From contig JAYKNF010000015.1 in the NCBI GenBank assembly GCA_036172665.1, positions 2,542,001 through 2,606,000 of the forward strand: a DNA stretch of 64,000 nucleotides, in the 5' to 3' direction. The notes beneath the pieces were generated by a model. It was not told where the DNA came from. It saw only the letters and a list, made by a program, of their open reading frames with translations, and did no database searches. The DNA comes from Prosopocoilus inquinatus. Its lineage: Eukaryota > Arthropoda > Insecta > Coleoptera > Lucanidae. A program made the position numbers and the translations under genes. Positions 10,349 to 57,653 of the stretch are shown here, piece after piece (the stretch's first letter is position 1; every line of letters starts with the position of its first letter).

Positions 10349-10617
10349 TTATAAAATTTTGAAAAATTTTGTGCAAATCGTTTTTAATTGCAGTGAGAAC
10401 CTCGAGCAGCCTCTGGACAGCTGTTTCAGCCCTGCTTGAGGCTTCTTCAGGACTTCAGGGGGACTCATTAGGAGCAAATCCCGCTTCAATTTGTCTATCC
10501 TACTGCAATGTTAGGTCAAAAAGCGATAGTAAGATGTCGCTATTTTATATGTTCATCATTCTTACATCGCATTTGCGAATAAATTGGGCAAGTCGTTTTT
10601 GGTCTGCAGTGGGAATG

Positions 10618-10682
10618 TCGAGCTACGTTTCTGCTGAAGAAGCCCCAAGCAGGGCTGAAACAGCTGTCCAGAGGCTGCTCGA
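10618..10682 (+). ncRNA. Type I hammerhead ribozyme, locus A unit 1
   Basis: Core CTGAAGA at 10634-10640 and GAAA at 10657-10660. Stem II is AGCCC/GGGCT (10641-45 with 10652-56, 6-nt loop). Stem III is the palindrome ACAGCTGT (10660-10667): a 2-bp hairpin with a 4-nt loop, or 8 bp in a dimer. Cleavage is expected after C10668. Stem I is TCTG/CAGA (10630-33 with 10669-72), an internal loop, then TCGAGC/GCTCGA (10618-23 with 10677-82). All invariant core bases are present. Confidence 0.85.
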
Positions 10683-10929
10683 GCTTCTCACTGCAATCAA
10701 AAACGATTTGCACAAAATTTTTCTAAAATCTTTCATTATGCTTTGACAGCAAGCATGGCCGCCTTGCATGGGGGACTCATTAGGAGCAAATCCCGCTTCA
10801 ATTTGTCTATCCTACTGCAATGTTAGGTCAAAAAGCGATAGTAAGATGTCGCTATTTTATATGTTCATCATTCTTACATCGCATTTGCGAATAAATTGGG
10901 CAAGTCGTTTTTGGTCTGCAGTGGGAATG

Positions 10930-10994
10930 TCGAGCTGCGTTTCTGCTGAAGAAGCCCCAAGCAGGGCTGAAACAGCTGTCCAGAGGCTGCTCGA
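10930..10994 (+). ncRNA. Type I hammerhead ribozyme, locus A unit 2
   Basis: Exact equivalent of the motif 312 bp upstream, with one change in the stem I internal loop. Predicted cleavage after C10980, so two cuts release 10669-10980, a 312-nt RNA. Confidence 0.85.
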
Positions 10995-11179
10995 GGTTCT
11001 CACTGCAATCAAAAACGATTTGCACAAAGTTTTTCTAAAATCTTTCATTATGCTTTGACAGCAAGCATGGCCGCCTTGCATGGGGGACTCATTAGGAGCA
11101 AATCCCGCTTCAATTTGTCTATCCTACTGCAATGTTAGGTCAAAAAGCGATAGTAAGATGTCGCTATTTTATATGTTCA

Positions 11180-12460
11180 TTATAAAATTTTGCTTACCAT
11201 TGTTCTCGGAACTACCAATTGATCGTAATCGTCACCAAAATGTCTGGAATGGTATAGTATTCCCTCCTCGTCTAGTGAATATAAATCGTTACCAGGATCA
11301 AGTTTGATCGTTTCCAGAATTTTGAATAAGTCCTTATCTCGCAATTGTTCTTCCTTAATCCTTTGCCTATCCGAAACGGCCTCGTAGCTGTTTTTTTCTG
11401 CAGTATAAATGGGTATTCGTGACAGCGCATCTGCATTTCCGTTTTCTCTTCCCGCTCTGTGAATTAATTCAAAATCATACTCACTTAACGTAATAGCCCA
11501 TCTAGCTAATTTTGATGTCGGATTTTTTAGAGACAGCAACCATTTAAGTGGCTTGTGATCCGTAATTACCTTAAACCTGCATCCATATAGGTAGCACCTG
11601 AAATGTTTGACCGCCCAAATCACACCTAGGCACTCTCGTTCTGTAGCACTATAGCTTTGTTAGCTCTGATTTAAGATTTTTCCTGCATAAGCGATTAGAT
11701 ACTCGAACCCTCCTTCCTCCTGGCTTAAAATAGCTCCAAGAGCTACACCTGAAGCATCTGTGGTTAAGATAAATGGTTTTGAAAAATTCGGATACCTAAG
11801 AATTGGATCTTTTATTAAAGCCTTTCGTAAAATATCGAAAGATTGTTGACAATCTTCGCTCCACTTGAATTCACGGTCTTTCTTCGTTAATTCTGTCAAT
11901 GGCTTGGTTATACGTGAAAAATTCCTGATAAATTTCCGATAGAAACCAACTAAGCCGAGAAAGCTGCGAAATTCTTTAGGGGTTCTTGGTGTCCGATATT
12001 TTTCGATAATTCTTGTTTTATCCGGATCTGGCTGGACTCCTTTTGTCGAAATTATGTGGCCCAGATATTTGGTTTCTTCGCTCAGGAAGTTACATTTGCT
12101 TGGTTTTAATGAGAGATTGTCTTCTCTAAGTCTCTGGAACACCTCCAAATTCCTTAAATGGTCGTCAGTCCCCCCTGAGCTAAAAACAATTATATCGTCA
12201 AGGTAAACAAACAAGATATACCTGTTAATCCGCTCATCACGACGTTCATCAGTTTCTGCCAAGTCGACGGCGCATTTGCGAGACCGAAAGGCATTCGTAA
12301 ACATTCGTAATGTCCATCCGGAGTTGAAAAAGCCGTTTTCTCGACATCACCTCCTTCTATCTCGACTTGCCAAAAACCACTGACTAAATCTAACGTCGAG
12401 GAGAGACGCTCCACCCTGTTGATTAAGTATTAAGTGTTTTTTGTATGTTAGGTATTGGTT
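11180..12460 (-). pseudogene. Gypsy reverse transcriptase and RNase H
   Basis: Minus-strand RT motifs: STLDLVSGFWQVEI (about 12400), MPFGLANAPSTWQKLM (about 12285), FVYLDDIIVFS (YLDD active site, about 12210), GHIISTKGVQPDPDK (about 12050), FRSFLGLVGFYRKFI (about 11960). RNase H follows: ILTTDASGVALGAILS (about 11765) and VITDHKPLKWLL (about 11560), then LIHRAGRENGNADALSR (about 11465). Frames change near 12300 and 11640. The conserved order RT-RNase H-integrase identifies Ty3/gypsy. Confidence 0.92.
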
Positions 12461-13533
12461 AGAAATCTCGCTTTGTATCTGAATTTAGTTCTCTATAATC
12501 TATACAGACTCGTATTTTTGAATCTCCTGTCGCTGATGCCTTTTTATGAACCATTAAACAAGGAGCAGACCATGGAGATGTTGAAGGACGAATGCTTCCT
12601 TCGTCTAACATTCCCTGTATTTGTTCTTTTAATATGTTCCTCTGAGTCCAAGATATCCTGTACGGAGCTTTAGCAATTGGTGGTATATTATCGACTATTA
12701 CATGATGTTTAACTAATTTGGTTGCTTTCAGTTTCTTCCCTTTGCTAAAAAATATGTCCTTATAATTACTTAATAAATTCATCAACTTACCCTTTTGACC
12801 CTCATTTAAGTGGTCAAGGTTGAAGACGTTTTCTAGAGATTCAGTTTCGCTTTCTACAGATCCCACATATTCCTGCAGAGGCTCTTCTTCTTGCTCTGCG
12901 TCGTAGGAAATTCCCATAATTTGACCTCCATCCAAAGCTTTTTGCGATATGTTCATAAGTCGCAAAGGAATCTGTTTGTTCCTAGGACAACACAATATCC
13001 TCGCTGTAACTAATCCAGGAAATTCTTCCGGTGATTGTTCAATTATGACGGATTCTGATGAATTGTGAGTTTGGAGTCCAGCAGTAATTACCTCGCACCT
13101 CGGTGGAATTGTAATATTTTCCGTCAACCTCACATAATTCAATCCGACATTTTCCGACTCTCTGTTTTCTATCTTTTCTATCATTTCTAAAATTAAGTAA
13201 AACTTTATTACATCGCAAAAAATCTACTCCAAGTAATCCGTCTGCTGTCAGACTTAAATTATTATCACACACCACAAAACTATGTTTAATTTTCTTACCT
13301 CCTATTGTAAGTTCAAGACTCGACTTATCTAACACCGGTAACTTATTACCTGAAATACTTGTAATGTTTCTTCCTCTCACGAGTTCCAATATGTTACCTT
13401 TCTTCCCCATTACTTCCCGCTTCACGATGGACACTGCAGCTCTGGAATCCACCAGAAAACATTTAGTTTTCCACTCCACGCTTATGTGTACTGTGCACAT
13501 GCTTGTGCATATTCCGTTAACTGCTGGTACCAT
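12459..13533 (-). pseudogene. Gypsy aspartic protease and N-terminal RT
   Basis: The protease at 13533-13190 carries FLVDSRAAVSIV where family members have D-S/T-G-A, so the catalytic glycine is replaced by R; GLLGVDFL is the second conserved block. A frame change leads into the linker and RT start at 13184-12459 (KHHVIVDNIPPIAKAPYR, MLDEGSIRPSTSPWSAPCL, RVCIDYRELNSDTKRDF). The protease substitution alone would block processing. Confidence 0.88.
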
Positions 13534-13622
13534 AAGAATATTTTGTGACTCGCTTTGTTTTATTGCGCCCTGGGTTGGGGTGTTGCAAGAATCGCATTCT
13601 CGTTTAAAGATTTCCCTTCTTC

Positions 13623-14420
13623 TTAGTTTACCACTCTAATTTGAGCAGTACAATACCTCGCAATGTGTCCCTCTTGATCACACCTAAAACATTTAGTCTT
13701 ACGCGGGTTGCGACAATACCTCGATATATGTCCTTCCTGTCCACACAAATAACATGTTATTTTAGTTTCTCCTGGTATCTGACTGTCGTGTGGAGTACTT
13801 TCAGCTGGGTGAAACTTATTTCTCACTTGCTTCCATTCTGGGGGGTGAGAATTGTTAGTAGTTGATCGGACAGGATTCGAAAATGTTGGTTTAGTTGCCG
13901 CTCTTCTTTCTGTTTGCCGGGCTTCAAAGTTGTTTTGCGGGTGCATGCTATGCCTGAAAACATTTTCTTCCAGAGCTTCTTTAAATGTCTTGGCGTTTGA
14001 AGAAAGTACGTAGCGCTGATATTCTTTCTTCACCCCAATACAGAATTGCGTTAAAAGCTGTTCTTCTAGTACAGCTGTCCGTAGTGGTGAGATATCTTAC
14101 TCCGTTCCTTTATATAAAGTAGCCTGCAATTTTAAGCCGCATTTCATATTCCTTTACTTCGTCATCTTGGCGTTGATAACATGACGCCAATTTTTGAGCA
14201 GCCTGCTGTGGGTTAGGGTCTGTGGAAAATTCTTTAAGTAACACACTTCTGAACTATTTCCATTGCAACTGCAAATGCTCTGGATTTGCGCGTAAAAATT
14301 GTTTGGCATGGCTCTATGGACTCTACAAAATCTTTTACATTATTATTTCGCCCGTTAAATAACAGAACAGAATTTATTAGACTCGCTATTGCTTCACTAT
14401 CGAGTTGTTTCAGGCATCTC
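13623..14420 (-). pseudogene. Gypsy gag with two zinc knuckles
   Basis: At 13760-13650 two CX2CX4HX4C knuckles are visible (CYLCGQEGHISRYC and CFRCDQEGHIARYC), the nucleocapsid signature. Upstream on the minus strand, 14420-14040 has degenerate gag coding (for example ALINSVLLFNGRNNNVKDF-like readings) broken by stops. It lies between the protease and the 5' LTR at 14666, the expected place. Confidence 0.85.
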
Positions 14421-14665
14421 TGTTAATTACTACTTACTATTAAACTAAAATATTATATGATTATTAAAATAATAACACAAATCTCTAATTCAGCTTTCAA
14501 AGCAACGGAAAAACTTGTTACTTATCTGCCCCGTTTTCTTTTCAACAAAATCAATCAAAAACAACCCAAAACAATTACGCATACCCTCAAACTCATTAAT
14601 TGATATAAATCTCGGAAACTGCAAGTTTTGCTAAAAAGAAATTGACTTAGTAAACCTGACACCAA

Positions 14666-23862: not shown

Positions 23863-23874
23863 GGTAATAAATTA

Positions 23875-24449
23875 TTTTAGAAAAATTTTGTGCAAATCAT
23901 TCTTGATTGCAGTGAAAACCTCGAGCAGCCTCTGGACAGCTGTTTCAGCCCTGCTTGGGGCTTCTTCAGCAGAGACGTAGCTCGACATTTCCACTGCAAA
24001 CAAAAACGACTTGTCCAATTTATTCGCAATTGCGATGTAAGAGTGATGAACGGATATTTTATCTGTTCATTATTTTAATAATGTTGTATAGGGGATTTAT
24101 GTTTTATACCAACGTAATGCAACAGGTGGTGGCTTTTTCAGAACAGACACCAGTCATTCGTTGTTATTTTTGTCGGCGTTAAGGACATGCACTGTGGCTT
24201 GCAAGATAAACGCATACACCTGTTTTTCGATGTATTCGAATAAAACAGCTGTCCAGAGGCTGTTCGAGATTTTCACTGCAATCAAGAACAATTTGCACAA
24301 AATTTTTCTAAAAATAATTTTATTATGCTTTGACAGCAAGCATGGCCGCCTTGCATGGGGGACTTATTAGGAGCAAATCCCGCTTCAATTTATCTATCCT
24401 ACTGCAATGTCAGGTCAAAAAGCGATAGTAAGATGTCGCTATTTTATCT
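23875..24449 (-). mobile_element. Retrozyme locus B: inverted composite hammerhead repeat
   Basis: A minus-oriented unit (23875-24240) faces a plus-oriented partial unit (24243-24449). The locus is bounded by a 12-bp target duplication GGTAATAAATTA at 23863-23874 and 24450-24461. The minus unit holds a full hammerhead and then about 170 bp (24076-24240) absent from the 312-bp family but present, inverted, at locus C (25158-25340). The plus part begins inside stem III of the hammerhead (AACAGCTGTCC), so the junction sits at the ribozyme core. Confidence 0.8.
23921..23985 (-). ncRNA. Type I hammerhead ribozyme, locus B
   Basis: Minus strand core CTGAAGA (23969-23963) and GAAA. Stem II GC-rich as in locus A, stem III ACAGCTGT, C at the cleavage position (23935). 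Stem I TCGAGC/GCTCGA (23980-85 with 23921-26). All invariant bases intact. Confidence 0.82.
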
Positions 24450-24461
24450 GGTAATAAATTA

Positions 24462-25157
24462 ATTAGAAAGGTCACGACTGTCACCAAAGAAACTTCACAC
24501 TATCAAAATAATCGGAAATTTCGTTATAAGACTTCAAAATCAAGTAGCCGAGTTTTCATCTACTTTTTGCTTTGTAAATGGGTATTTTGAGAATTTTGTT
24601 ATGTTTCGAGACATAAAGGTTAGGAACGGCAGTTGAAATTATTACTGTTTTTATGAGTAAAACGGTAGTTATTCAATAAATATCACAACATTCCAAATAT
24701 TTAACGGCGTGTAAATGTAATGTAATTTAATCGAAATATAATTGTCGATTGCTGTCCTATTCATATAATTTTTTTTAACACTTATCAAGATTCTTCAAAG
24801 CTCAATTTGTTATTTTCGTCGTGTTGGTGACAAGAGTAGAGGAAAGTTTATTAAAACATGGAATCCCTTGCGGTTTATAATGGATTTATTCTTCAATAGA
24901 AAAAACAGCGACATCCTACGATCGCTTAATTCAGAAGGGCTTTAGCCGAATTGTAAATCGACATTTTTGGACATCTATCTCGAACCATCTTTTCTATTTG
25001 CAAATTTTTCCTCTTCCCACGTATTACTTGTGCTTCATAGTATTTTTATTTAAGCTATAATCTTTTGCTACTGCTGTGAATTACTGATTCGTCTTCTAAG
25101 TTACTCGTTTTCTGTCAGTTTGAATTTTAATTGTTTGACACTGACAAATTAAATCTC
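24462..25157. other. No feature recognised between retrozyme loci B and C
   Basis: AT-rich, stops in all frames, no terminal repeats seen. Confidence 0.4.
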
Positions 25158-25522
25158 CAGCCCAACTTAATACATCGAAAAACAGGTGTATCTTGCAAGC
25201 CACAGTGCATGTCCTTAACGGCGACAAAAATAACAACGAATGACTGGTGTCTGTTCTGAAAAAGCCACCACCTGTTGCATTAAGTTGGTATAAAACATAA
25301 ATCCCCTATACAACATTATTAAAATAATGAACAGATAAAATATCCGTTCATCACTCTTACATCGCCATTGCGAATAAATTGGACAAATCGTTTTTGTTTG
25401 CAGTGGGAATGTCGAGCTACGTCTCTGCTGACGAAGCCCCAAGCAGGGCTGAAACAGCTGTACAGAGGCTGCTCGAGGTTTTCGCTGCAATCAAAAACGA
25501 TTTGCACAAAATTTTTTAATTA
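25158..25522 (+). mobile_element. Retrozyme locus C: single composite unit
   Basis: Plus-oriented copy of the minus unit at locus B (same 170-bp extra segment followed by the hammerhead domain and the GCAATCAAAAACGATTTGC block). Together B and C form inverted near-copies about 0.9-1.6 kb apart. No clear target duplication was found. It is the only locus without an inverted second part. Confidence 0.75.
25412..25476 (+). ncRNA. Type I hammerhead ribozyme, locus C
   Basis: Core CTGACGA (25428-25434) and GAAA (25451-25454). Stem II AGCCC/GGGCT, stem III ACAGCTGT, A at the cleavage position (25462; any base but G is allowed), stem I TCGAGC/GCTCGA at 25412-17 with 25471-76. Intact. Confidence 0.82.
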
Positions 25523-25822
25523 TTAAAATACTAAGTGGGCAAGGTATTTGAAGTTTCATATCACAGCAATTTGTCAAATTAATTTTACTGTTAGATTATA
25601 TACCGGGTGGAAAGTTTCAAACCCGAACATAGCAAACTTGTATCGAAAACTTTGTTTCTGTGAATTGCTGCTCGCCATTTGAAGATACAAAACTGGCAAT
25701 GGTATTAAAGAAAAGAGAAAATTATGGACAATATTATGGTGTTAAAATTATTCCTAAACATTAATACTTTCAAGTAGAAAGTTTTTTTAATCTCAAACCG
25801 GACAGAAAAATGAAGGGAAACA

Positions 25823-25864
25823 CACTCAACGTTTCGCTATAGATTTATAGCTTCGTCAGGAGTG
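25823..25864 (-). ncRNA. Hammerhead motif in left arm of Penelope element
   Basis: Minus strand: stem I CACTC (25864-60), core CTGACGA (25859-53), stem II GCTATA/TATAGC, GAAA, then ACGT-T and stem I partner GAGTG (25827-23). Stem III is the 4-nt palindrome ACGT with no loop, which can form only between two molecules or repeats. One extra A lies between core and stem II. Confidence 0.65.
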
Positions 25865-25986
25865 AAAAAAAGTAAATAAACAAGTTGTCAAGAGAAACAA
25901 GTCGTCAAGAGAAACGAAAAGGTAACATGATTTTTAAACTAAACTACGAGTTGTTCGGAATAAAAGTAACGAGAACTAATTAAAGC

Positions 25987-26039
<53 letters not shown>

Positions 26040-26056
26040 TTAATTAATTGACAGAT

Positions 26057-26790
26057 CTATATCTTGTTTAAAGAGTCCAGAAAACTACAAAATATGTCAT
26101 TTAAATTTTCAAAGTCCGTACGTTTATTAATAGAATTTCCAGACATTTTAATTTTACACATTTCTATGAAACGTCTTTTAAAAATATTAGATTCACTGTA
26201 CAAAATATCAGTATTATCAAAATCAAAATTATGATTATTTACTAATGAATGCTCTACAAGCATTGAATGATTTTGATTATTTTTTTGAATATGATATTTA
26301 TGTTGGTCTAAACGTTTTTTTAAATTTTGGCTCGTTTCACCTATATAAACAGAATTACAATTTGAACATTTGATTTCATAAACCACGTTAGGTTGTTTTA
26401 ATTTCGGTATTTTGGTTTTTAAATTCGAAAAAATTAAATTTAAATTATTCACAGATTTACTGGCTAAAATTAAATTATGTTTTTTGAAAATGTGTTTAAA
26501 TGTATTGTGTAATGGTTCAATATAAGGCAAGGATATGTATTTATGATTCGAAGTTTGTCTAATGTTTTTAGAGACATTTGAATTTTGTAAGTATTTAATA
26601 CGATTTTTAATTACTGATTCAATAAGATTTATTGGATAAGAATTTTGAATAAGAGTTTTCTTTATTAAATTTAAGTTATCATAAATGAAAACTTTATCAG
26701 AAAGTAAAATAGCTCGATCAGTTAATGAAATAATAGTTGCAATTTTATAATTTTTAGGTGTGTACGAGTGAAAATTTATGTACCTACCTG
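26057..26790 (-). pseudogene. Penelope C-terminal domain with GIY-YIG endonuclease, left arm
   Basis: Open from about 26790 to the stop at 26057. The end carries YEIKCSNCNSVYIGETSQ and KRLDQHKYHIQKNN, i.e. the CxC-VYIGET-type GIY-YIG nuclease motif fused to Penelope RTs, then HSLVNNHNFDFDNT and an RRFIEM segment. Only the linker and nuclease remain; the RT palm with its active site is absent. The stop is followed by the homopolymer tract. No frameshift is seen in this arm's nuclease. Confidence 0.9.
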
Positions 26791-27060
26791 GTCAGGTAGG
26801 TACATAAAGCAGGTTATTTTGAATAAGAGTTTTCTTTATTAAATTTAAGTTATAATAAATGAAAACTTTATCAGAAAGTAAAATAGCTCGATCAGTTAAT
26901 GAAATAATAGTTGCAATTTTATAATTTTTAGGTGTGTACGAGTGAAAATTTATGTACCTACCTGACCAGGTAGGTACATAAATTTAATATTTAATTTAAT
27001 ATTTAATACCTGACCAGGTAGGTACATAAATTTTCACTCGTACACACCTAAAAATTATAA
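26643..27060. repeat. Tandem duplication and nested palindromes at the Penelope centre
   Basis: The left arm has a tandem duplication of period 174 bp (GAATAAGAGTTTTC at 26647 and 26821). Around the centre, GTACCTACCTGACCAGGTAGGTAC (about 26951-26974) is itself a perfect palindrome, repeated at about 26784-26806 and 27007-27029 in variant forms. These are expected to form cruciforms or to mark template switches during the inverted insertion. Confidence 0.75.
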
Positions 27061-27749
27061 AATTGCAACTATTATTTCATTAACTGATCGAGCTATTTTA
27101 CTTTCTGATAAAGTTTTCATTTATGATAACTTAAATTTAATAAAGAAAACTCTTATTCAAAATTCTTATCCAATAAATCTTATTGAATCAGTAATTAAAA
27201 ATCGTATGAAATACTTACAAAATTCAAATGTCTCTAAAAACATTAGACAAACTTCGAATCATAAATACATATCCTTGCCTTATATTGAACCATTACACAA
27301 TACATTTAAACACATTTTCAAAAAACATAATTTAATTTTAGCCAGTAAATCTGTGAATAATTTAAATTTAATTTTTTCGAATTTAAAAACCAAAATACCG
27401 AAATTAAAACAACCTAACGTGGTTTATGAAATCAAATGTTCAAATTGTAATTCTGTTTATATAGGTGAAACGAGCCAAAATTTTAAAAAAACGTTTAGAC
27501 CAACATAAATATCATATTCAAAAAAATAATCAAAATCATTCAATGCTTGTAGAGCATTCATTAGTAAATAATCATAATTTTGATTTTGATAATACTGATA
27601 TTTTGTACAGTGAATCTAATATTTTTAAAAGACGTTTCATAGAAATGTGTAAAATTAAAATGTCTGGAAATTCTATTAATAAACGTACGGACTTTGAAAA
27701 TTTAAATGACATATTTTGTAGTTTTCTGGACTCTTTAAACAAGATATAG
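27026..27749 (+). pseudogene. Penelope C-terminal domain with GIY-YIG endonuclease, right arm
   Basis: Inverted copy of the left-arm ORF. Almost identical, but one extra A in the run near 27485 shifts the frame inside the nuclease (after VYIGETSQN), and the frame resumes at 27465-27749. The near identity of the arms points to a single origin or ongoing gene conversion. Confidence 0.88.
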
Positions 27750-27766
27750 ATCTGTCAATTAATTAA

Positions 27767-27811
<45 letters not shown>

Positions 27812-27934
27812 GCTTTAATTAGTTCTCGTTACTTTTATTCCGAACAACTCGTAGTTTAGTTTAAAAATCATGTTACCTTTTCGTTTCTCTTGACGACTTG
27901 TTTCTCTTGACAACTTGTTTATTTACTTTTTTTT

Positions 27935-27976
27935 CACTCCTGACGAAGCTATAATTCTATAGCGAAACGTTGAGTG
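27935..27976 (+). ncRNA. Hammerhead motif in right arm of Penelope element
   Basis: Stem I CACTC (27935-39)/GAGTG (27972-76), core CTGACGA (27940-46), stem II GCTATA/TATAGC (27948-53 with 27958-63), GAAA (27964-67), ACGT palindrome stem III, U at cleavage position 27971. Same layout as the left arm, opposite strand. Confidence 0.65.
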
Positions 27977-28204
27977 TGTTTCCCTTCATTTTTCTGTCCG
28001 GTTTGAGATTAAAAAAACTTTCTACTTACTATTTTCATCGGACAAGAACAAACTTCAATTATTAATACTTTCGGAATATAAATAGAATTTCCAAATTTTA
28101 AACGAAAAATTTAGTCGCCTATGTCAGAACTTTCAGTTCTTTCAATTAATAGAAAATAATTTATACGTCAGTCAAAGAGTATTATGACTTATTGCAAAAC
28201 TTAA

Positions 28205-34441: not shown

Positions 34442-37006
34442 CTAAATAACAATTCGATGCATCGCAAAGTACATTCGACGTAAAAAGCGTCCAACACTAA
34501 GTGGCCTGAACTCTTTTCCCTGGTGATCATAAATGTCGTCCACGAAAAAGTGATAAATTAAAGAGTCGGTGTCGGTATAGAGTAATTTAGCGCTGTTCTT
34601 AAATTTCGTTTTGATGTAATTGTAATGGAGATCGTACATAAACGTTTTGGAAAGATCTAGTATAATGAAGCCTACGTATATAGGTTTATTAAATTTAATG
34701 TCTAATCGTTTCACTTCGATGATGACCACGTCGTCTTCGAAAATGGTACAACTATGAAAATTTGGTTTCGGTATGTAATATTTTGCACCGTAACGTCCTT
34801 CCCATTTAGTAACCAGTTTTACATCTTTATATTTCCGAACGTTTTCCATAGTTTTATCAAACACTGAATTGTTCATTAATTTGTAGAAATTTTTCTCAAA
34901 ATCATTTTTACTTCTTTTACGTAAATCATTATTTAAATTTATGTACGATTCCATCCAATTAGACTGTTTAAATTTTAATACTCTTAATACTCGTTCAACT
35001 TTCAATCCTAATTGAATTGCTTATTTTAAATTTCTGTAAAGAATAATATATTGCTTTTTATTAAATAATTCATAATTTGGGGATTTTTGATGATGAACGC
35101 GGTGGTACAAGCGTTCAGGATAAAGCGGTAAATCTTTATGTTCTTCAAATTCTTCTTCGAGATAGTGAGGTCGCATTCCAGAATGCAGCCAAATTCAGCA
35201 TCGTTCGATACGTTCATAAGATCTATCAAATAAGGATCAACCCACTCGAACTGTGCGAAAAGTAAAGGTAAGCACATACCTGTGCCGTATAAGTTGTTAA
35301 CGTCGTAATACATTAAATATGACGACGGTTCATCAATGTTAAAATCGTTCATATACTTATTCGCTTTACGGTAACGATTTGAACGTTGAGAAACTTCACC
35401 TCTGATACCTTTTTCGATAAACATTAACATATCTATGTCTGTTAATAATTCTAAGGCAATGAACGTTGTCTTCAGCATGCTGTCGAAAGCTAAACCGGGT
35501 GCGGTATAATAATGCAGGGCATTTAACTGTTAGGTTTGTAAACATGTTGCTCTAAAATTTTTAAAGATGTCCGTTAACAGCAAGACATCCGTTTTCAAAT
35601 ACAGCTCCGCATATTCTTGTAAATTTTAAATATTGAACGTATTCCGTACGTTCAAGGCATGTTCATATTCATCGTCCGAAATGTGAGATTGATTAACTTT
35701 ATTTAAAAAATCACTTTTAGAACATAATTTGGTATCCTGTAATTTCTCCCAATTGTCAAGATATTCGTGCGGAAAAGTACCTTTCCTCTCGAGCAATTTA
35801 AGTTCCGTATCATTTTTACAATTTGATTGATTGATTGGGTAATAAGTTTTTGATCTCTATCTAAATATGATGAAAGTTTGTCTAAACTGCTGGGCATGAA
35901 TCGAAACGAATCCAAAAACCTAAAATTAATATTAGTATTTGAAATATATTTAGAAAATGAAATTTATTTTTCTTTATTAATCGGTAATAAACTAATTTGT
36001 CCTGGAATTTGTGTAGCTAACGCTTTTACATTACATTACATGCTTTTCTAAATTTTCTTGTGATATAATATGATTGAGGCAACGTTCACAAAACCAATTC
36101 TTATTATGTAAACTACCGATTTGTCTGTGAAGTAAACCAAATAACTTTTTTTAATGCAAAATGAAACGCTGTTTTTGAATTTACATTGATTTCATCAACA
36201 TCATCATCATCATTTTCTTCACAAGGTATCATTAATAATTAATTCGTTTTGTGAATTCAAACTTGCTTAAAGAAACTGGCAATACTTCCGTATTTTTCTA
36301 CTGTAAATACGTTAATTGAAAGCTCGTTCATTAATTCAAATTTCTTTACATCTTTTAAACTAATAGGAAAATTAATGCCTTCGAATTTTAAAACGTTTGA
36401 AAAATGAGGATAAGATGAAATGCGCTCAGATTTTTTATGTGCGGGAGCAGGATGTAAGGCTGCTACGATCGCCCAAAGAAAACAATATTCATCATTGTTT
36501 TGCAAATTTAAAACGGACCTCTTATTTTGAATAAATATAGAGATTTGAACGTATGTTGAAATATGTCCATTATTGGGTGCAAAATTATTAATGTTAACTT
36601 TTAATTGAAAAATTTCGTATAAAGCCCAGCCGCTGTCACGTTCTTGAAATTCTTCCAATTTTGATAAATTTTATTTTTAACGTTCGTTAAAAATAAAATA
36701 CCATTCCTTTAAATTTGTAGAATGATCTATTACTTTATTGTTGGTTGTAAAATGTTTTATGTCATTTTCACCGTTTTGAGGCTTGATAAAATTAGCTAAA
36801 AATATTACGTTTACTTTCAAAAGACTTTTCGATAATTCTTTCTTAATTTTATAGTAAAACTTTTTAAAATACTTTTGTAAAAATAAATTTGGATCTTTAA
36901 TGTTTAAATTAATTATTGCACCGGTTCTCAGTCTATTTTTAAAACACGATTCTAAATCCAGCCATACCAAAGCTTTTCTTTTTTGATTTTTTTTTCTCTT
37001 AGCCAT
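34442..37006 (-). pseudogene. Polinton protein-primed DNA polymerase B
   Basis: Minus strand from ATG 37006. N-terminal region: EEFQERDSGWALYEI (about 36650), LQNNDEYCFLWAIVAALHP (about 36500) and a C-x2-C...H finger (about 36100). Exonuclease region: [16 protein letters not shown] (about 35905). Polymerase: [20 protein letters not shown] (about 35400), [14 protein letters not shown] (motif A, about 35310), [19 protein letters not shown] (about 34880), [13 protein letters not shown] (motif C, about 34580). These motifs and their order match Polinton family B polymerases that use a terminal protein primer. At least five frame breaks (near 36670, 36250, 35700, 35490, 35020), so no single product can be made. 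Confidence 0.92.
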
Positions 37007-38981: not shown

Positions 38982-40946
38982 TTACAAGTTATCTACTAAA
39001 TGTTTACGCACTTTGTTGACTTTGACATTGTCAATACAAAAGTCACAGCAATATGGATCGCAGTCATTATCGTCGATTCCCGCACATTCATCGTGTGCCC
39101 AACGATAGCACATTGAGCACTGCACCCACCCTTCTCCTGAATGAGACTGCAGAAATGTTTCGGTACAAATAAGACATTCTGAATCTTCTTCCACTTCGGA
39201 TTCTACCGAAGATTCTTCGTCATTTTTGTCGTGTTTTCTTCTTTTATTATTCGTACATTTTCTCACACTTCGCTTTTTATTTCTTTCTTTTGGAACTTTT
39301 TTTTCTGCCAATTTATACTTGTTCTTTAAAGCTTTTCTTTCCGCCTGCTTTTCCTTCTTCTGTTGTTCCTCTAACAATTGATTTTTATATGGAGTGCTCG
39401 TCAAAACTACTGTGCCTCCAGACTTCCTTGATTTTGAGCTACGTTGTTCTTGTGACATTTTAGGGAGTGGATGAACATCATTTGGTAGAATGTTAAAACC
39501 ATTTGATGCCCTCGATGTCGAGGGTTCATTAGCTGAAGCTAAAGATTGTGTAACAGCTGTAGGTAAACCGTCATTTTGCTCATTTTCAATACTTTTTTCA
39601 TTGGCCTCATCATTCTGCTTATGGACCGTATTATTTTCATCTTCGACTTCTTCATTTTGTTCATGGGCGGCATCATTTTCCTCGTGGACATTGTCATTCT
39701 GAGGTTCATTTTGCTCAGTCACTTCAGCAGCTGCGAAATCAATGTCAGTGAAAACATCGGGGTCGTATGGAAAAATTCCAGTCTTCTTGAATCCATTAAT
39801 TGCATTAAGTGGTGTGCAGGATTGCATGTAAGACTCGTTGAAGATTTGTAAGATTTGGAAAACGGTTACAACCCTTCCGGGGTGATTAGTAAGCCACTTT
39901 TCCAATGATTTATCGTGGTAGTGATTGAGTGGGTACATAAAACTCACGTCTAAAGGCTGGAGCCTGTGGGTGGTGTGTGGCGGTAGACATACAATGGTCA
40001 CAAAATTACTTCTGGCTTTTTTGATGACACCTAAGTTTTTTGTGTGTGAAAGGTGGCCATCGAGAATTAAAAGTGCAGGATCCTCTTGTGAAGGCTTAAC
40101 AAAGGAAAGAAAATGGTCAAACCACACCGCAAAAACCTCAAGTTTCATCCAACCAGAATCATTGCAATAGAATGCTGTTCCCGGTGGCGCACCATCTTTC
40201 AACTCTTCTTTCATTCGCTTACGAGCAAAAATAACCATAGGTGGAACATAAGAGCCAGATGCAGACATACAAATTACGGCAGTAGTGGACACACCTCGTT
40301 CTGCAGATACAACTCTACCGACTTGTTTTCTACCTTTTTGAGCTAGAACTTTACAATTTTTACCTGGGACCGTACTCAAAGATGTTTCATCAACATTAAA
40401 GATCCTGTGTGCTGGAAATTGTATTGTGTCATATATTGTCTTTAGCGACGTGAAAAATTTGGTTACAACAGGCCGGTTAAAAGCGCGAGCGCGAGCCGCT
40501 GATGTTGACTCAGGTGATCTTAGTGAAAGTTGAGGGTGCCTCTTGCGAAAACCGGTCAACCAATCTTTGCCAGCTAGACATGTTTCCTTGGAAAAGGGAT
40601 GATCAATATTATTTTTATCTGCAAGCTGATAAGCAATTGATCTCACATCTTTAGTGGTGAGACCGTACATTCTGCTTTCCATGTCAAGTATATGCGCAAC
40701 CAATTCCTCTTCCTGATCCTTTGTGAAAACCAGTCTTTTGCTTCCCAGTTTCTTAACAGCATTAATAGCTATCTTGTTCGTTCCTTTACAGCGTCTCTTT
40801 AAACTCATTAGCGGAACACCAAAGTTTCTGGCTGCAGTTTTGTAAGCTAAACCGCGAGAGACCTCTTCTATTGCTTGTCGCATTTTATCTTCATCCCACA
40901 ACTGCCTCTCAGTTTTTCTTTTATATTTTTGAACCATGATCTGCAA
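38982..40946 (-). CDS. Pogo/jerky-type DDE transposase with C-terminal PHD finger
   Basis: 654 codons, no break. N-terminus: psq-type HTH (residues about 8-60, QAIEEVSRGLAYKTAARNFG), then a CENP-B-type DNA-binding domain (about 75-140). DDE domain: NVDETSLSTV (D about 185), LLILDGHLSHTKN (D about 296), HRLQPLDVSFMYPL (D about 330), i.e. the DDD form common in pogo elements. An acidic, low-complexity linker rich in E, N and Q (about 410-470) and a basic stretch follow. The end (about 592-640) has a C-x2-C...C-x2-C...H-x2-C...C-x2-C PHD pattern (CLICTETF, CSMCYRWAHDEC, YCCDFC). With intact ends and TA duplication it looks potentially active or recently so. Start ATG at 40946; MVQKYKRKTE four codons in is an alternative. 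Confidence 0.92.
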   Translation of the reverse strand: MQIMVQKYKRKTERQLWDEDKMRQAIEEVSRGLAYKTAARNFGVPLMSLKRRCKGTNKIAINAVKKLGSKRLVFTKDQEEELVAHILDMESRMYGLTTKDVRSIAYQLADKNNIDHPFSKETCLAGKDWLTGFRKRHPQLSLRSPESTSAARARAFNRPVVTKFFTSLKTIYDTIQFPAHRIFNVDETSLSTVPGKNCKVLAQKGRKQVGRVVSAERGVSTTAVICMSASGSYVPPMVIFARKRMKEELKDGAPPGTAFYCNDSGWMKLEVFAVWFDHFLSFVKPSQEDPALLILDGHLSHTKNLGVIKKARSNFVTIVCLPPHTTHRLQPLDVSFMYPLNHYHDKSLEKWLTNHPGRVVTVFQILQIFNESYMQSCTPLNAINGFKKTGIFPYDPDVFTDIDFAAAEVTEQNEPQNDNVHEENDAAHEQNEEVEDENNTVHKQNDEANEKSIENEQNDGLPTAVTQSLASANEPSTSRASNGFNILPNDVHPLPKMSQEQRSSKSRKSGGTVVLTSTPYKNQLLEEQQKKEKQAERKALKNKYKLAEKKVPKERNKKRSVRKCTNNKRRKHDKNDEESSVESEVEEDSECLICTETFLQSHSGEGWVQCSMCYRWAHDECAGIDDNDCDPYCCDFCIDNVKVNKVRKHLVDNL

Positions 40947-41051
40947 TAAAAAAAATAAAAATAAAACGATTTAGTATTTGGTAAGAATATTTGAACATTT
41001 GTTGAAATACCCCCCCCCCCCCGCCCATTATTGTATTTAAAATTTTTACAA

Positions 41052-41484
41052 AATTTTGCTGCAAATCGTTTTTGATTACAGTGGATCCATCGAGCAACCT
41101 CTGGACAGCTGTTTCGCCCTTTCTTGGGGCCTCGTCAACAGAAGTGTAGCTCGACAGTTCCACTGCAACCCAAAACGAGTTGTCCATATTTATTCGCAAA
41201 AGCGATGTAAAAGTATATGACAAATAAGTAGCGACATCCTTCGATCGCTTTTTGACCTAACGTTGCCGAAACAGCTGTCCAGAGGTTGCTCGATGGATCC
41301 ACTGCAATCAAAAACGATTTGCAGCAAAATTTTGTAAAAATTTTCATTATGCTTTGATAGCAAGTATGGCTGCCTTGCATGGGTTGACTTATTAATTATT
41401 ATGTAGCAAACCTGGCTTCAATTTGTTTTCCTACTGCAATGTTAGGTCAAAAATCGATCGAAGGATGTCGCTACTTATTTGTCA
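41052..41484 (-). mobile_element. Retrozyme locus D: inverted hammerhead repeat inside the pogo element
   Basis: A minus-oriented unit (41052-41268) joined to a plus-oriented one (41268-41484) that starts at GAAACAGCTGTCC. A 14-bp target duplication TAAAATTTTTACAA flanks it (41038-41051, 41485-41498). Diverged from loci A and E (for example TGGATCCA beside stem I). It lies upstream of the transposase ATG, so it may affect the pogo promoter. A run of 14 C next to the left flank (about 41010) is odd and may be an assembly or slippage artefact. Confidence 0.82.
41090..41154 (-). ncRNA. Hammerhead motif, locus D (core mutated)
   Basis: Same fold as the others (stem I TCGAGC/GCTCGA, GAAA, ACAGCTGT), but the core reads TTGACGA: the invariant C is U. 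Probably inactive. Confidence 0.7.
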
Positions 41485-42039
41485 TAAAATTTTTACAATG
41501 AGAGAAATGTAAATAACGTCGAGCAGGCAAAATGATCCCGGATCATTTTACCCACCCCAGTAAGGGATCATTTTGCCCCGAAAGTGTACAAATTGCATAA
41601 TGTATTGTAACTTGATGTCGGCTCTGTTTCATATTTTCGTAAACTCGTCAAACAGTAGACAAAACTATGTATTTTCATAAAATATATTACAAATTAATGT
41701 TGCTATTACTATAACAACACTGCTACAATAGTTTAAAAGTACTTACCTTAGATCAGACAGCATAAAGAACACGTTTTCACAAATATTTTTATAAAACGAT
41801 ATTACCTCGTTTTTTTTTAAGTGGTCATATAAACATGGCGACTCGACTGACCGTAGTCACCGACTCGAACCACAGAGGGCAGCATAGGTATTAAAAATAA
41901 AAGGGCGGGATCACTATGCCCGCAGGGATCATTTTGGGCCACCGTCCCCTAATTACCATAAAACAAATTAAATTTTTTAGATTTTTTATTTTATAATTAT
42001 TTTTAGGTTACGTAATAAAAGAATTCAAAATTTTTACAG

Positions 42040-46904: not shown

Positions 46905-48139
46905 CATGGGCTGCTGGAAAAGTTTCTGGAAACGGTATGAAAAAACGCATATGAAATTTGGTAAACGGTATCATTGTTTTTCGACGCATTTGCCTTTGAC
47001 GTCAATACACTTTTGTATATGCTCGAACCAAACCAGTGTTCGGAATGTTTCAACCGCTGCTTCAGCCGACGAAAATCGCTCACCACGCATTTTAATTTTG
47101 ATATTTGGGAACAAAAAGAAATCATTAGGTGATAAATCAGGTGAATACGGTCAATGAGTCATTAATTCAACATTTTTGTTGGACAAAAAATCAAATGATT
47201 GACGGGAGTGAGAGCTGGCATCATGATGGAGAATAATTCGTCGATTTCGATTGTTTTTTCTTATTTGATCGATAACTTCCGGCAAACAAATTGCAGTATA
47301 CCAAGCAGCATTCACGGTTTTTCGATCCTCTAAAGCCACGGTTGCTACATGTCCAGTTAAACCAAAGAAACAAGCAATCATTTGCTTCGCAGCACTGCGT
47401 GTCGGACAACTTTTGTTGGTTTTGGTTCATTTTGAAATACCCAAACGGTAGATTGTTGTTTACTTTCTGGCTCGTACGAATAGATCCACGTTTCGCCACC
47501 AGTAAAGTTGTTATAAACTAAATTTGAACGACCTCCATTGAATTTCTTGAGCATTTCTTCGCACCATTTGACACGACCCTGCTTTTGCGTTTCTGTTAAA
47601 TTGTGTGGGATCCAACGACTGCAAAGCATTCGTACGTTCAAATGATCACGCAAAATCTGGTGTATTGCTTTCATGTCAATGCGTAAGGATGTTTGAATCT
47701 CACGGTATGTCACATGTCGATCTCGCTCAAGCATTTCACGCACAGCATCTACATTACTGGCAACAACAGACATTGATGAACGACCTTCATGAAATTTGTC
47801 ACTGAGAGAGGGTCGTCCACGCTGGAATTCGGCAAACCAATTATAAACACTGCTCTTTGATGGTGCTTCATCTCCAAAAGCCAAATGAAGCCGATCGAGG
47901 CATTGTTTCGGCGTTAGACCACATTTGAAATCGTAAAAAATCATGGCACGAAAATTTTCTCGCGATATTTCCATGTTTACACAAAATTACTTTTCTCAAA
48001 TGCTGTACAAACAAAACTAGTTCACTTGAATAGGAACTATCAATAGAATTATAGGCGAAAAACGTTAAAAATGTGACAGTTGATAACCGCTAACAACTCT
48101 AGACCTACTAGATTCCAGAAACTTTTCCAGGAGCCCACG
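46905..48139 (-). mobile_element. Mariner element inserted between Polinton capsid genes
   Basis: Inverted ends share GGGCTNCTGGAAAAGTTTCTGGAA (left 46907, right end 48137). The transposase fills it on the minus strand. A TA duplication is not clean at either end. Confidence 0.82.
46971..47974 (-). pseudogene. Mariner transposase, DD34D type, inactivated
   Basis: Minus strand from ATG 47974. HTH pair: MEISRENFRAMIFYDFKCGL, KSSVYNWFAEFQRGR, VTYREIQTSLRI. WIPHNLTETQK is the conserved mariner linker. First catalytic motif reads TGGETWIYSYEPESKQQS where mariners have TGDETW (D to G). Second: RRIILHHDASSHS (a residue missing after HHD). Third: YSPDLSPNDFFLFP (D34D). Frame shifts near 47390 and 47155; stop at 46971. 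Confidence 0.88.
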
Positions 48140-53547: not shown

Positions 53548-54290
53548 CAGTGACCGGCAAAAAGTTGGCAACATATGGGAAAATTCTTTATTATTGATTT
53601 CTCAGAAAAACTATTCGATATGAAAGCTCCTGCATCTTCCCCGACTCAAGATCCATGTATCAAAATTTGAAAATCTCTTATCATATACCAAGGCAATAAA
53701 AATATTTGAAACCGACATTACATTAAAGTACCTTTATTTTCCGTAGTACGCGCAAATTTTATTTGGAAAAGTTACTCAGAATTATTATGAGATCTCAAAT
53801 ATGAAAACACAGCTACCTACGATGGAAAAAATATGGTTACAAAGAAATGTAATTTTTAGGCCATCAATGTTATTAATCATAATTTCTAGTTGATAGTTGA
53901 GCAAAAGACAAATCTTAGAGTATGTTCATGTCACATTTGAAGAAACGTCCAGCTGTACACATTCAAAATTCTACGATGTTACACGAAAAAAATTGAAAAA
54001 TACGTGAAATTCTATTTTTCATCGTAGACACCCATGATTTGGTGTTTAAGATCTCATAATAATTCTGAGTAACTTTTCCAAATAAAATTTCCGCGTAGTG
54101 TAGAAAATAAATGTACTTTACTTTTATGCCGATTTCCAATATTTTGATTTCCTCGGTATATGGTAGGAGGTATGCAAACTTTGATGAGTACATCTCAAGT
54201 TTGGAAAGATCTTTCATAAAGAATATTTTTTTCTGAGAAATCAATAATAAAGAATTTTCCCATATGTAGCCAACTTTCTACCGGTCACTG
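53548..54290. mobile_element. 743-bp palindromic mariner-type MITE, TA duplication
   Basis: Ends CAGTGACCGG in inverted orientation, flanked by TA at 53546-47 and 54291-92. Arms of about 250 bp pair across the element (GTTGGCAACATATGGGAAAA, TTTGGAAAAGTTACTCAG), so transcripts fold into a long hairpin. No transposase; the minus ORF 54244-53963 is part of the palindrome. Confidence 0.85.
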
Positions 54291-54399
54291 TATAATGGGA
54301 TTCACAAGCATTCGTTTAATTTAATCATTCAAAAGAAATTATTATACCTTTAATTAAGTAAGTAAAGTAATGTTTACTGTGCACAGATGATGATGATGA

Positions 54400-54840
54400 T
54401 ATCCATTTTTCGTCGATAAAATCGTCCTTAATGAGCACGATACGTGGTTGCTTTTGTTCAGCCGTTAATTCTCTGGGAACTTGTCGGGGCCTCTGTTCGC
54501 TTTTCCAATACGATGAAGATGGTTCCCAATGGTGGACTTTGACACCTGGAGTTAGGTTGCCAATCTCCAAACACTAGTCCTTGGATTACCTTCAATGGTT
54601 TGTCGGAAGTCTTCAAGATTATAAGCTAACGGTCTTTCCGAACGATTCTTATCTTTAAGACCTTCTTCCCCATTCCGAAATTTCGCAAACCATCAACGAC
54701 AAGTAGACTCTTTTACCGTTCCCGCACCTTCAATTCTGCATATATTTCTTGCGGCTGCTGCCCCTGAATTCATATAACATTCAATTACGATTTCGTTCTG
54801 TTTCTATGATAAACAATCAATTACTAGAATGTAAAATTAT
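54400..54840 (-). pseudogene. Mariner transposase N-terminal fragment
   Basis: Minus strand: NSGAAAARNICRIEGAGTV, STCRWWFAKFRNG, then LEDFRQTIEGNPRTSVWRLA, a stop, and SKSTIGNHLHRIGKANRG (about 54510). Both HTH motifs of mariner transposases are present (xARNICxxxG, STxxxWFxxFRxG, STIxxHLHxIGK), but no catalytic domain follows. Confidence 0.7.
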
Positions 54841-54849
54841 TTAACTGGG

Positions 54850-55843
54850 AAACGTCAAACTGTTTATGGACAAGTGTACATAATATTAAAAAAAAAAAAA
54901 CTAACAAAAATACCAACTGATTTTACGTTGATTTTATATCGTGGAACATGTGACAATTGTTTTGACATTTGCACTTGAATGGCAATTTAATTAATTCAAA
55001 TTGATACTTAACCCACCATCTAGCGAAGGATAGTCTCAACTCCTTTTATCGTTTACTGCATTCATTTCAAATATTCAAGTTTTTGTTATCAATTTATAGC
55101 ATTTCAAATTTCCCTTTAAGTTTCTCAAAGTTATGTCATCTCTTGCTATAGCTCTTCGCACTTTTATTTGGGTCGCGATCGCAACACGTTTGAAGTTTCC
55201 CGGTCATTGTTGGAATTGCGCATGGCATCCGTTGGTCGCAGAACCGGATCGGAGGGACCATTCGCTTGAGGTGTTTCGTTGAGGCTATTTCAGCATGTGA
55301 TTTCTTCTTGATTTAATTATGTGATTTTAGAAAGTCATCAACCCTCCAATGACAATATAAATTTTAGTTTACACCCTTGGAAGCAAAGTTCTTTTTATGG
55401 AGGGATGCTATTGTGGAGCATAGTTTAAGTATTAACCGTGGAAATATTTCTACTTTTTATGGAGTATCTTGAATATTTTTCCCTTTCTGCCGGATGGGCC
55501 GTATGACCGCCTTGTGAAGGTATCTACCAAAATAATTTCAAACTCACGACGTTTTGATCGAGATCGGAATCGACACGTCCTTGCAAAATCGTATATGGCC
55601 GGTTCCGGTGAGAAGCGCTACCGCTTCCGTTTTTTTTTGTGTTGGCTGAGTCCGGTCCATTTCCCGAATGCGGATTACGATTTTCCCCGCTGAAAACGTT
55701 GGGATCTCCGGAGGCCGTGTCACAGGTTTTTATGATCCAACATTTTCTTGCAACTTCACATCAGTGCAAAATTATTTTGGTATTTTAAATTATTTAAATT
55801 TCAATTAATTCTACTAACCATTTTGTTTCAAGTTAACTTAAAT
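54850..55843. other. No feature recognised
   Basis: AT-rich with one moderately GC-rich block (55490-55735). The 74-codon ORF there is Arg/Phe-rich with no motif I know. Confidence 0.35.
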
Positions 55844-56064
55844 TACTGGGTGTTTCATAGCCTATGGAGGAAATTAAAAGGGTAGCTAGGGGAGATCAAA
55901 TTAAAGATTTTTTCTTAATAAATTTTTGGGAAAAAAGCAATAACTAGAAAGGCGGCCATGCTTGCTGTCAAAGCATAATGAAAGTTTTTAAAAAAATTTG
56001 TTGCAAATCGTTATTGATTGATAGAAAAATTTTGTGCAAATCGTTTTTGATTGCAGTGAGAACC

Positions 56065-56129
56065 TCGAGCAGCCTCTGGGCAGCTGTTTCAGCCTTTCTT
56101 GGGGCTTCTTCAGCAGAAACGTAGCTCGA
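56065..56129 (-). ncRNA. Hammerhead motif, locus E unit 1 (U16.1 mutated)
   Basis: Full layout, but the U pairing with A15.1 next to the cleavage site is C (plus strand G at 56080). Activity doubtful. Confidence 0.7.
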
Positions 56130-56376
56130 CATTCCCACTGCAGACCAAAAACGACTTGCCCAATTTATTCGCAAATGCGATGTAAGAATGATGAACATAT
56201 AAAATAGCGACATCTTACTATCGCTTTTTGACCTAACATTGCAGTAAGATAGACAAATTGAAGCGGGATTTGCTCCTAATGAGTCCCCCATGCAAGGCGG
56301 CCATGCTTGCTGGCAAAGGATAATGAAAGATTTTAGAAAAATTTTGTGCAAATCGTTTTTGATTGCAGTGAGAACC

Positions 56377-56441
56377 TCGAGCAGCCTCTGGACAGTTGTT
56401 TCAGCCCTGCTTGGGGCTTCTTCAGCAGAAACGTAGCTCGA
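56377..56441 (-). ncRNA. Type I hammerhead ribozyme, locus E unit 2
   Basis: CTGAAGA and GAAA intact; stem III is ACAACTGT, no longer self-complementary; C at the cleavage position; stem I intact. Confidence 0.78.
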
Positions 56442-56688
56442 CATTCCCACTGCAGACCAAAAACGACTTGCCCAATTTATTCGCAAATGCGATGTAAGAA
56501 TGATGAACATATAAAATAGCGACATCTTACTATCGCTTTTTGACCTAACATTGCAGTAAGATAGACAAATTGAAGCGGGATTTGCTCCTAATGAGTCCCC
56601 CATGCAAGGCGGCCATGCTTGCTGGCAAAGGATAATGAAAGATTTTAGAAAAATTTTGTGCAAATCGTTTTTGATTGCAGTGAGAACC

Positions 56689-56752
56689 TCGAGCAGCCTC
56701 TGGACAGCTGTTTCAGCCCTGCTTGGGGCTTCTTCAGCAGAAACGTAGCTAC
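56689..56752 (-). ncRNA. Hammerhead motif, locus E unit 3 (stem I truncated)
   Basis: Core, stem II and stem III intact, but the outer stem I strand is replaced at the inverted junction (56750), leaving only the 4-bp inner helix. Confidence 0.65.
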
Positions 56753-56988
56753 AGCTGAAACAGCTGTCCAGAGGCTGCTCGAGGTTCTCACTGCAATCAA
56801 GAACGATTTGCAAAAAATTTTTCTAAAATCTTTCATTATGCTTTGACAGTAAGCATGGCCGCCTTGCATGGGGGACTCATTAGGAGCAAATCCCGCTTCA
56901 ATTTGTCTATCCTACTGCAATGTTAGGTCAAAAAGCGATAGTAAGATGTCGCTATTTTATATGTTCGTTATTGATTGAAGTGAAAACC

Positions 56989-57053
56989 TCGGGCAGCCTT
57001 TGTACAGCTGTTTCGGCCCTGTTTGGGGCTTCATCAGCAAAGACGTAGCTCGA
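56989..57053 (-). ncRNA. Type I hammerhead ribozyme, locus E subfamily 2, minus
   Basis: Core CTGATGA (57037-57031) and GAAA; stem II GCCCC/GGGGC-type; ACAGCTGT; A at cleavage position; stem I outer helix with one mismatch. Confidence 0.78.
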
Positions 57054-57184
57054 TATTCCCACTGCAAACAAAAACGACTTGTCCAATTTATTCGCAATTG
57101 CGATGTAAGAGTGACGAACAGATAAAACAGCGACATCCTACGATCGCTTTTTGACCTGAGTCGTTTTTGTTTGCAGTGGGAATA

Positions 57185-57249
57185 TCGAGCTACGTCTCTG
57201 CTGAAGAACCCCCAAGCAGGGCTGAAACAGCTGTACAGAGGCTACTCGA
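57185..57249 (+). ncRNA. Type I hammerhead ribozyme, locus E subfamily 2, plus
   Basis: Core CTGAAGA (57201-57207), GAAA, ACAGCTGT, A at cleavage position. Stem II has one internal mismatch, and stem I outer helix has CTCGA paired to TCGAG. Confidence 0.76.
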
Positions 57250-57653
57250 GGTTTTCACTGCAATCAAAAACGATTTACAACAAATTTTTTTAAAAACTTT
57301 CATTATGCTTTGACAGCAAGCGTGGCCGGCTTGCATGGGGGACTTATTAGGAGCAAATCCGCTTCTTTTTGTCTAACCTACTGCAATGTCAGATCAAAAA
57401 GCGATCGTAGGATGTCGCTGTTTTACCTGTTGATAAATTTAGAGTTTATTTAATAATAAATTTGCATTTTGTGAAATAATTTTGATTAATTAAGAAGCTG
57501 CAGGTGTAAATTAAAGAAGAAATTAATAAAGTTAAACTGCTGTAACTTTCTTATTATTCGGTTCTGGTCAAAAGCGAATTAAGAAAAAAGCTTTGTTTTG
57601 ATGTCCTACAGCTACCCTTTCAATCTCCTCCATACGTTGTGAGACACCCAGTA

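Follow-up and report, generated by a model that had tools for sequence, protein, structure and literature searches.

Animal retrozymes of the class without long terminal repeats (non-LTR retrozymes) are described as direct tandem repeats of units of 150-450 bp (Cervera and de la Pena 2020, PMC7229834), and the same source reports that amphibian hammerheads cut well only as dimers. Penelope copies are described as typically comprising adjacent, inverted pseudo-LTRs and a target-site duplication (TSD), with an optional 31-bp tail at one inverted end (PMC3846280); purified Penelope protein is reported to cut and extend both strands of its target, with reverse transcription starting at two adjacent internal sites of the RNA, such that the tail is the stretch between them (PMC11167929). 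Penelope-like elements have been called a strong candidate for the retrozyme mover because type I hammerheads, tandem copies and co-existence are found for both (PMC7229834), and a curation guide states that retrozymes may rely on Penelope elements (PMC8969392). Here, we describe a retrozyme family from the beetle Prosopocoilus inquinatus, seen in a 64,000-nucleotide stretch (‘the window’: GenBank assembly GCA_036172665.1, contig JAYKNF010000015.1, positions 2,542,001 to 2,606,000) and sampled elsewhere in the genome. The insertions of this family, of the animal non-LTR class, are mostly built of two head-to-head halves ending at two fixed sites, and were probably moved by a Penelope-like enzyme that extends both cut strands of its target.

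The five loci picked out in a first-pass annotation of the window (A to E) do share one hammerhead-bearing unit, as seen in a BLAST map and a tandem period of 312 bp; this unit has a GC content of 0.43 and is arrayed in tandem at 10458-11180 and 56022-56750, the other window loci being partial copies. The full unit carries a hammerhead with a CTGANGA core, a stem II of AGCCC/GGGCT, a GAAA, a cleavage base of C or A, and a two-part stem I, with the palindrome ACAGCTGT as stem III. Taken alone, this 8-nt palindrome (ACAGCUGU) is predicted to form 2 bp and a 4-nt loop, and a co-fold pairs all 8 bp between two molecules. Of the ten full-length copies that align across the window, eight have kept the catalytic core intact, and both parts of stem I are also kept in seven of the eight (one distal mismatch each in 56989-57053 and 57185-57249), in agreement with the earlier tally of ten motifs, seven of them with full core and stem I. 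Damage to the full-length copies consists of a C3 to T change in the hammerhead of D, T16.1 to C at 56065-56129, and partial loss of distal stem I at 56689-56753; counting a truncated copy without the 5′ strand of stem I (10416-10450, minus strand), the window holds nine intact cores.

That the motif is a type I hammerhead, as first annotated, is borne out both by a strict descriptor (stem II and stem I each of at least 4 bp), with six matches in the window against none in 100 dinucleotide shuffles, and by compensatory changes. Across the ten aligned window copies, three pairs have changed on both sides (7/500 shuffles as high; slid controls, 0); across 65 distinct rows of 72 matches from the wider sample described below, in an alignment fitted to the structure and thus biased towards it, four pairs and six cells have changed on both sides (8 and 3 of 500 shuffles; slid controls at most two pairs and three cells). 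The core is intact in 60 of these 72 matches, 47 of the 72 also having both stem I and stem II contiguous over at least 4 bp; our own motif model (R1) was built from family rows, such that its scores on those rows hold by construction. At the gathering cut-off, Rfam gives no match to the window hammerheads, an outcome that the first-pass annotation had named as one that would speak against its reading; the covariation (three pairs) points instead to an Rfam library that simply does not hold this hammerhead family. A permissive search of 10300-11300 returned 13 matches, with Hammerhead_HH9 as the sole hammerhead family, at 17.2 and 14.3 bits (cut-off 52) and in register with the core.

Stem I is prolonged past the hammerhead into a rod, in which unit positions 114-166 pair with 220-271; the fold of 10547-10740 has a z of -6.86, and none of 200 shuffles reaches this stability. 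In E1, an open frame of 284 codons (55968-56822, minus strand) passes through 2.3 retrozyme units, the unit length of 312 being a multiple of 3, and the longest open frame at locus A has one stop per unit; we would put the E1 frame down to chance, and make no coding claim for it. Judged by its sequence, the family is supported as an animal non-LTR retrozyme, the class first suggested for it: it has a type I hammerhead with an intact core, a non-coding tandem unit within 150-450 bp, low GC, TSDs of more than 4 bp and no LTR. The features of plant LTR retrozymes are absent, the hammerhead here being of type I and the TSDs 9-16 bp long.

What the first-pass annotation had overlooked at these loci was the presence of head-to-head, inverted halves with TSDs (Table 1), together with a Penelope-like element at 25772-28060; and E, which it took as one locus, is in fact two insertions, one (E1) nested in the other (E2). 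The TSD of C is uncertain, a script giving 12 bp in AT-rich sequence and another test 8 bp, with 14/500 random draws as long. In B and C, a 190-bp foreign piece (24052-24242 and 25151-25345, in inverse orientation) is joined to the retrozyme at unit ~89; it is perhaps part of a variant source RNA or a captured flank.

As insertions A, B and D have exact duplications, and E1, nested in an older copy, has one 14-mer on both of its sides, we widened the sampling of loci, covering part of a genome of 650 Mb in 173 contigs. The sample combined 100 kb of sequence surrounding the window; 120 kb drawn, at round-number places fixed in advance, from four other contigs; eight 3-kb loci from a pattern search of the genome; and a genome search with the unit, from which 40 of 74 first-look candidates were scored and 39 used, the 40th being locus A. 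This gave a set of 60 loci, each with at least 60 bp of unit, of which 39 are best genome matches and hence non-random. The pattern search itself found 18 places (reversed control, 5), and one of the eight loci fetched from it (L001) has a retrozyme. The 120-kb sample holds eight retrozyme loci, one of them a 46-bp fragment; crude scaling gives a genome total of some tens of thousands. Some loci are dependent (n6, at -6142 to -5198 on C15, repeats the surroundings of n11 as an inverted duplicate; L043 and L045 seem to be each other's inverse; the matches of L061 and L062 are alike), and these three pairs were kept in the 60-locus counts; n6, L043, L045, L061 and L062 are absent from the 18 copies used for end sites. 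Between about -11,600 and -5,150 from the window start on C15, two retrozyme copies have exactly inverse flanks, as after a larger inverted duplication.

Both orientations are present at 36 of the 60 loci, and the 41 joints between neighbouring segments are overwhelmingly of one kind: 36 are ‘-+’, in which 5′ ends meet head-to-head, with only three ‘--’, one ‘++’ and one ‘+-’. TSDs of at least 11 bp occur at 26/60 loci against 18/1179 mismatched flank pairs, and of at least 9 bp at 32/60 against 108/1179; these 32 are 9-16 bp long, with a GC content of 0.12 (that of L044 is a run of A). At 15 of the 36 inverted loci the script gives no TSD reaching 9 bp. The script scored L034 as having one orientation, though the family model finds hammerheads there on both strands, and it merged E1 with E2; E1 was read by hand.

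The outer ends of the inverted copies are paired. Where the TSD is 11 bp or longer, 14/18 copies by script, or 15/19 with E1 added by hand, pair an end at unit 263-273 (site 1) with an end at unit 89-100 (site 2); with the cut-off at 9 bp, the pattern holds in 17/21, or in 16/20 without L045. The scored windows were unit 258-280 and 85-104, and differ from those noted earlier from raw BLAST ends (265-282 and 95-110); among the 12 such copies (TSD of at least 11 bp) fetched after the earlier windows had been noted, nine fit the scored windows and three fit the noted ones strictly, the others being 1 to 6 bases off. Were ends to choose between the sites evenly and independently, at least 14 mixed pairs in 15 would arise with a probability of ~0.0005 (binomial, by hand), a figure to be read with the sites having been partly defined on the same data. 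Among the copies of a single orientation, 11 have a TSD of 9 bp or more; their reverse transcriptase (RT)-side end lies at site 2 in six cases, at site 1 in four and elsewhere in one. Neither retrozyme end showed a poly-A or simple 3′ tail. The hammerhead cut site was considered as the 5′ end of inserted copies and finds no support: (+) halves start at scattered positions, none clearly at 212, with five (B, D, E1, L033 and L056) starting near unit 197-201, beside stem II. Priming by base matches between target and RNA was likewise set aside, the excess being weak (1.04 against 0.49 contiguous bases) and open to inflation by the choice of TSD.

The Penelope-like family of this genome has much the same architecture. 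The arms of the window element are 98.8% identical, the right being 33 nt longer than the left, and minimal hammerheads, for which Rfam gives no hammerhead match above cut-off at this motif, lie near both of its outer ends. All four of the complete, independent insertions sampled are built of inverted halves, tailed at one end only and flanked by a TSD of 10-12 bp; besides the two in the window, these include L070 on C4 (TSD 12 bp) and a 700-bp Penelope-derived insertion at 9269-9978 of C1:30,000,001-30,030,000 (L019-L021 joined; TSD 12 bp), which strings together short pieces that bear hammerheads and alternate in orientation, with strand switches at the stem II palindrome. L072 shares its flanks with the window element, is hence its duplicate, and was left out of the four; weak fragments (C15 -31155, C1 10190-10244, L002, L006, L007 and L008) were left unscored. 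The tail has 740 first-look candidates in the genome, of which 40 were scored (41 matches). At C3:41,907,275-41,935,214, nine scored, near-identical tails form an array, five pointing one way followed by four pointing the opposite way, at a spacing of mostly 2.8 kb but for two gaps of 5.4-5.6 kb, which suggests recent activity and a large palindrome. One copy of this array (L071) has an intact open reading frame (ORF) of 822 aa with RT (PF00078) and GIY-YIG (PF01541) domains. The 120 best of 1609 protein relatives include five with organism names, from four ants and one ladybird, and a fly is named in a separate result, in line with an insect host.

Drawing these observations together, we propose a model for how the retrozyme might move. 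Its transcripts would cut themselves into units and then circularise, as expected for the class. A Penelope-like RT/GIY-YIG enzyme would cut both strands of AT-rich DNA, at places ~12 bp apart, and both target 3′ ends would be extended on retrozyme RNA, one strand starting at site 1 and the other at site 2, the two sites flanking the rod (114-271). Joining of the two cDNAs head-to-head would then generate (-)(+) copies with duplications mostly of 9-16 bp. Since the retrozyme insertions have Penelope features, with two sites peculiar to themselves, it is simplest to suppose that a Penelope enzyme used both cut strands to copy the retrozyme RNA. We regard it as an evenly poised question whether animal retrozymes in general are moved in this way, with Penelope-like enzymes extending both cut strands from two RT entry sites that flank the rod, insertions as head-to-head cDNA pairs, and the rod as a docking handle read by shape and not by shared sequence.

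Mobilisation of retrozymes by Penelope machinery is a published hypothesis, for which our data provide structural evidence and not proof. An insertion shape resembling that of Penelope may point to the retrozyme mover, and the two-site, head-to-head scar common to both families here is a readable signature for other genomes; if the model is true, a Penelope enzyme copies RNA that shares no sequence with its own. In the literature searched, with most subscription papers lying outside it, we saw no account of retrozyme insertions that are head-to-head and end at two sites.

Several points weigh against this model. No sequence is detectably common to the retrozyme and Penelope units of this genome, and the two retrozyme sites lie ~130-140 nt apart along the unit as against ~33 for Penelope. 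The end-site windows were set partly on the data that they score, and 4/18 scored copies do not fit: both ends of C8 fall at site 2, and in L001, L051 and L069 one end lies elsewhere (by eye, the odd left end of L001 resembles site 1 with a subsequent jump over the rod; it was scored as a misfit). A single orientation is found at 24/60 loci, and no TSD of at least 9 bp at 28/60. The end-site comparison covered retrozyme and Penelope-like copies, and the case as a whole is argued from genomic sequence.

The ‘-+’ order is itself also what twin priming by a LINE (long interspersed nuclear element) yields: an inverted 5′ part precedes a 3′ part in sense orientation, between TSDs. The window does have LINE-like ORFs, recognised by eye only, and L1 copies with 5′ inversions are named in PMC2912911. 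In twin priming, however, the second priming place and the breakpoints vary, whereas the outer ends here are fixed in 14/18 copies; inversion at as many as 36/60 loci and the lack of a visible poly-A or simple 3′ tail also count against LINEs as movers, and on this comparison of retrozyme and Penelope-like copies we hold the explanation to be unlikely. Rather doubtful, in our view, is a variant in which a Penelope enzyme does the copying but the inverted halves result when one cDNA primes itself or switches template, without extension of both strands. Self-priming is the explanation given for Penelope head-to-head palindromes in PMC3846280, and it would agree with the repeated strand switches in the 700-bp C1 array and with the tight inner joints of the retrozyme, where the gap or overlap is at most 8 bases in 25/31 two-segment ‘-+’ loci; a single cDNA from a single start would, however, leave the second fixed outer end unexplained.

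Tandem units, inverted halves and the lack of an Rfam match above cut-off might also be taken to indicate an ordinary satellite, or a fold-back DNA transposon, with a hammerhead-like stretch by chance. Against this stand the proportion of intact cores among the 72 matches, with covariation; outer ends that differ in sequence and are not inverted terminal repeats; and a TSD length that varies. A plain satellite is rejected on the TSDs and the fixed, differing ends, and we judge this explanation as a whole very improbable. Extension of both cut strands by a Penelope-like enzyme is the reading that we prefer.

Among neighbouring features of the window, a Gypsy-type pol region (9299-13635) is the host of insertion A; frames at 34442-35529 are ones that we take to be Polinton-like polymerase B, with no Pfam match for the scanned frame 34442-35020; and other mobile elements comprise a pogo/Tc5-type transposase (38982-40970), a mariner-type helix-turn-helix frame (47378-47986) and a DUF659 frame (59901-60905).

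Table 1. Retrozyme and Penelope-like features of the window, in window positions.
Feature	Position	Strand	Remarks
Retrozyme insertion A	10362..11178		short (-) half, then (+) half of 2.3 tandem units; between pieces of Gypsy-type pol region
TSD of A, ATTATAAAATTTTG	10348..10361 / 11179-11192		14 bp exact; 0/500 random draws as long
Retrozyme insertion B	23875..24449		(-) half, 190-bp foreign piece also in C, (+) half
TSD of B, GGTAATAAATTA	23863-23874 / 24450-24461		12 bp exact; 0/500 random draws
Retrozyme copy C	25341..25516	+	one orientation, ending at site 1
Retrozyme insertion D	41052..41484		(-) half, then (+) half; (-) hammerhead with C3 to T
TSD of D, TAAAATTTTTACAA	41038-41051 / 41485-41498		14 bp exact; 0/500 random draws
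Retrozyme insertion E1	56022..56964		(-) half of 2.3 units, then (+) half; nested in E2
14-mer on both sides of E1, TCGTTATTGATTGA	56008-56021 / 56965-56978		
Older retrozyme insertion E2	55949..57434		split by E1; TSD not settled
Type I hammerhead	10618..10682	+	intact; predicted cut after 10668
Type I hammerhead	10930..10994	+	intact; predicted cut after 10980
Type I hammerhead (B)	23921..23985	-	intact
Type I hammerhead (C)	25412..25476	+	intact; cleavage base A
Type I hammerhead	56377..56441	-	core intact
Type I hammerhead	56689..56753	-	core intact; distal stem I damaged
Type I hammerhead	56989..57053	-	core intact; compensatory C-G to U-A in stem I
Type I hammerhead	57185..57249	+	core intact
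Penelope-like element	25772..28060		two head-to-head arms, right arm with 33-nt tail; ~250 bp from locus C
TSD of Penelope-like element, ATTAATACTTTC	25760-25771 / 28061-28072		12 bp
Open frame with GIY-YIG nuclease domain	26057..26791	-	PF01541, E 1.3e-6
Minimal Penelope hammerhead	25823..25864	-	stem I CACTC/GAGTG, stem III ACGT
Minimal Penelope hammerhead, other arm	27935..27976	+	
128-bp Penelope-like insertion	1640..1767		inverted; right end alone with tail
TSD of 128-bp insertion, TAATAAATTT	1630-1639 / 1768-1777		10 bp

Set beside known systems, the family is like the animal non-LTR retrozymes described in PMC7229834 in its type I hammerhead, its non-coding unit of ~300 bp, its GC content below 0.45, its tandem units and self-paired RNA, its long TSDs and the presence of Penelope elements in the same genome; unlike the direct tandem retrozymes described there, most of its TSD-flanked copies are head-to-head, with two fixed outer end sites. 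With the newt and axolotl hammerhead satellites of the same source it shares a very short stem III, and activity would, from the sequence, be expected mainly as dimers; its stem III differs in being an 8-nt palindrome, able to form 8 bp between molecules. The plant LTR retrozymes (PMC7229834, PMC7761336) are likewise non-autonomous, hammerhead-bearing and thought to pass through circular RNA, but are described as having a type III hammerhead in LTRs and 4-bp TSDs, in contrast to the type I hammerhead, lack of LTRs and longer TSDs found here. The likeness to endonuclease-containing Penelope-like elements, as described in PMC3846280 and PMC11167929, extends to head-to-head halves, a one-ended extra stretch, AT-rich targets, a hammerhead near the RT starts and, as we count it, TSDs (~8-12 bp in those elements); the retrozyme differs from them in encoding no protein, and in an extra stretch of ~130-140 nt in place of ~31-33.

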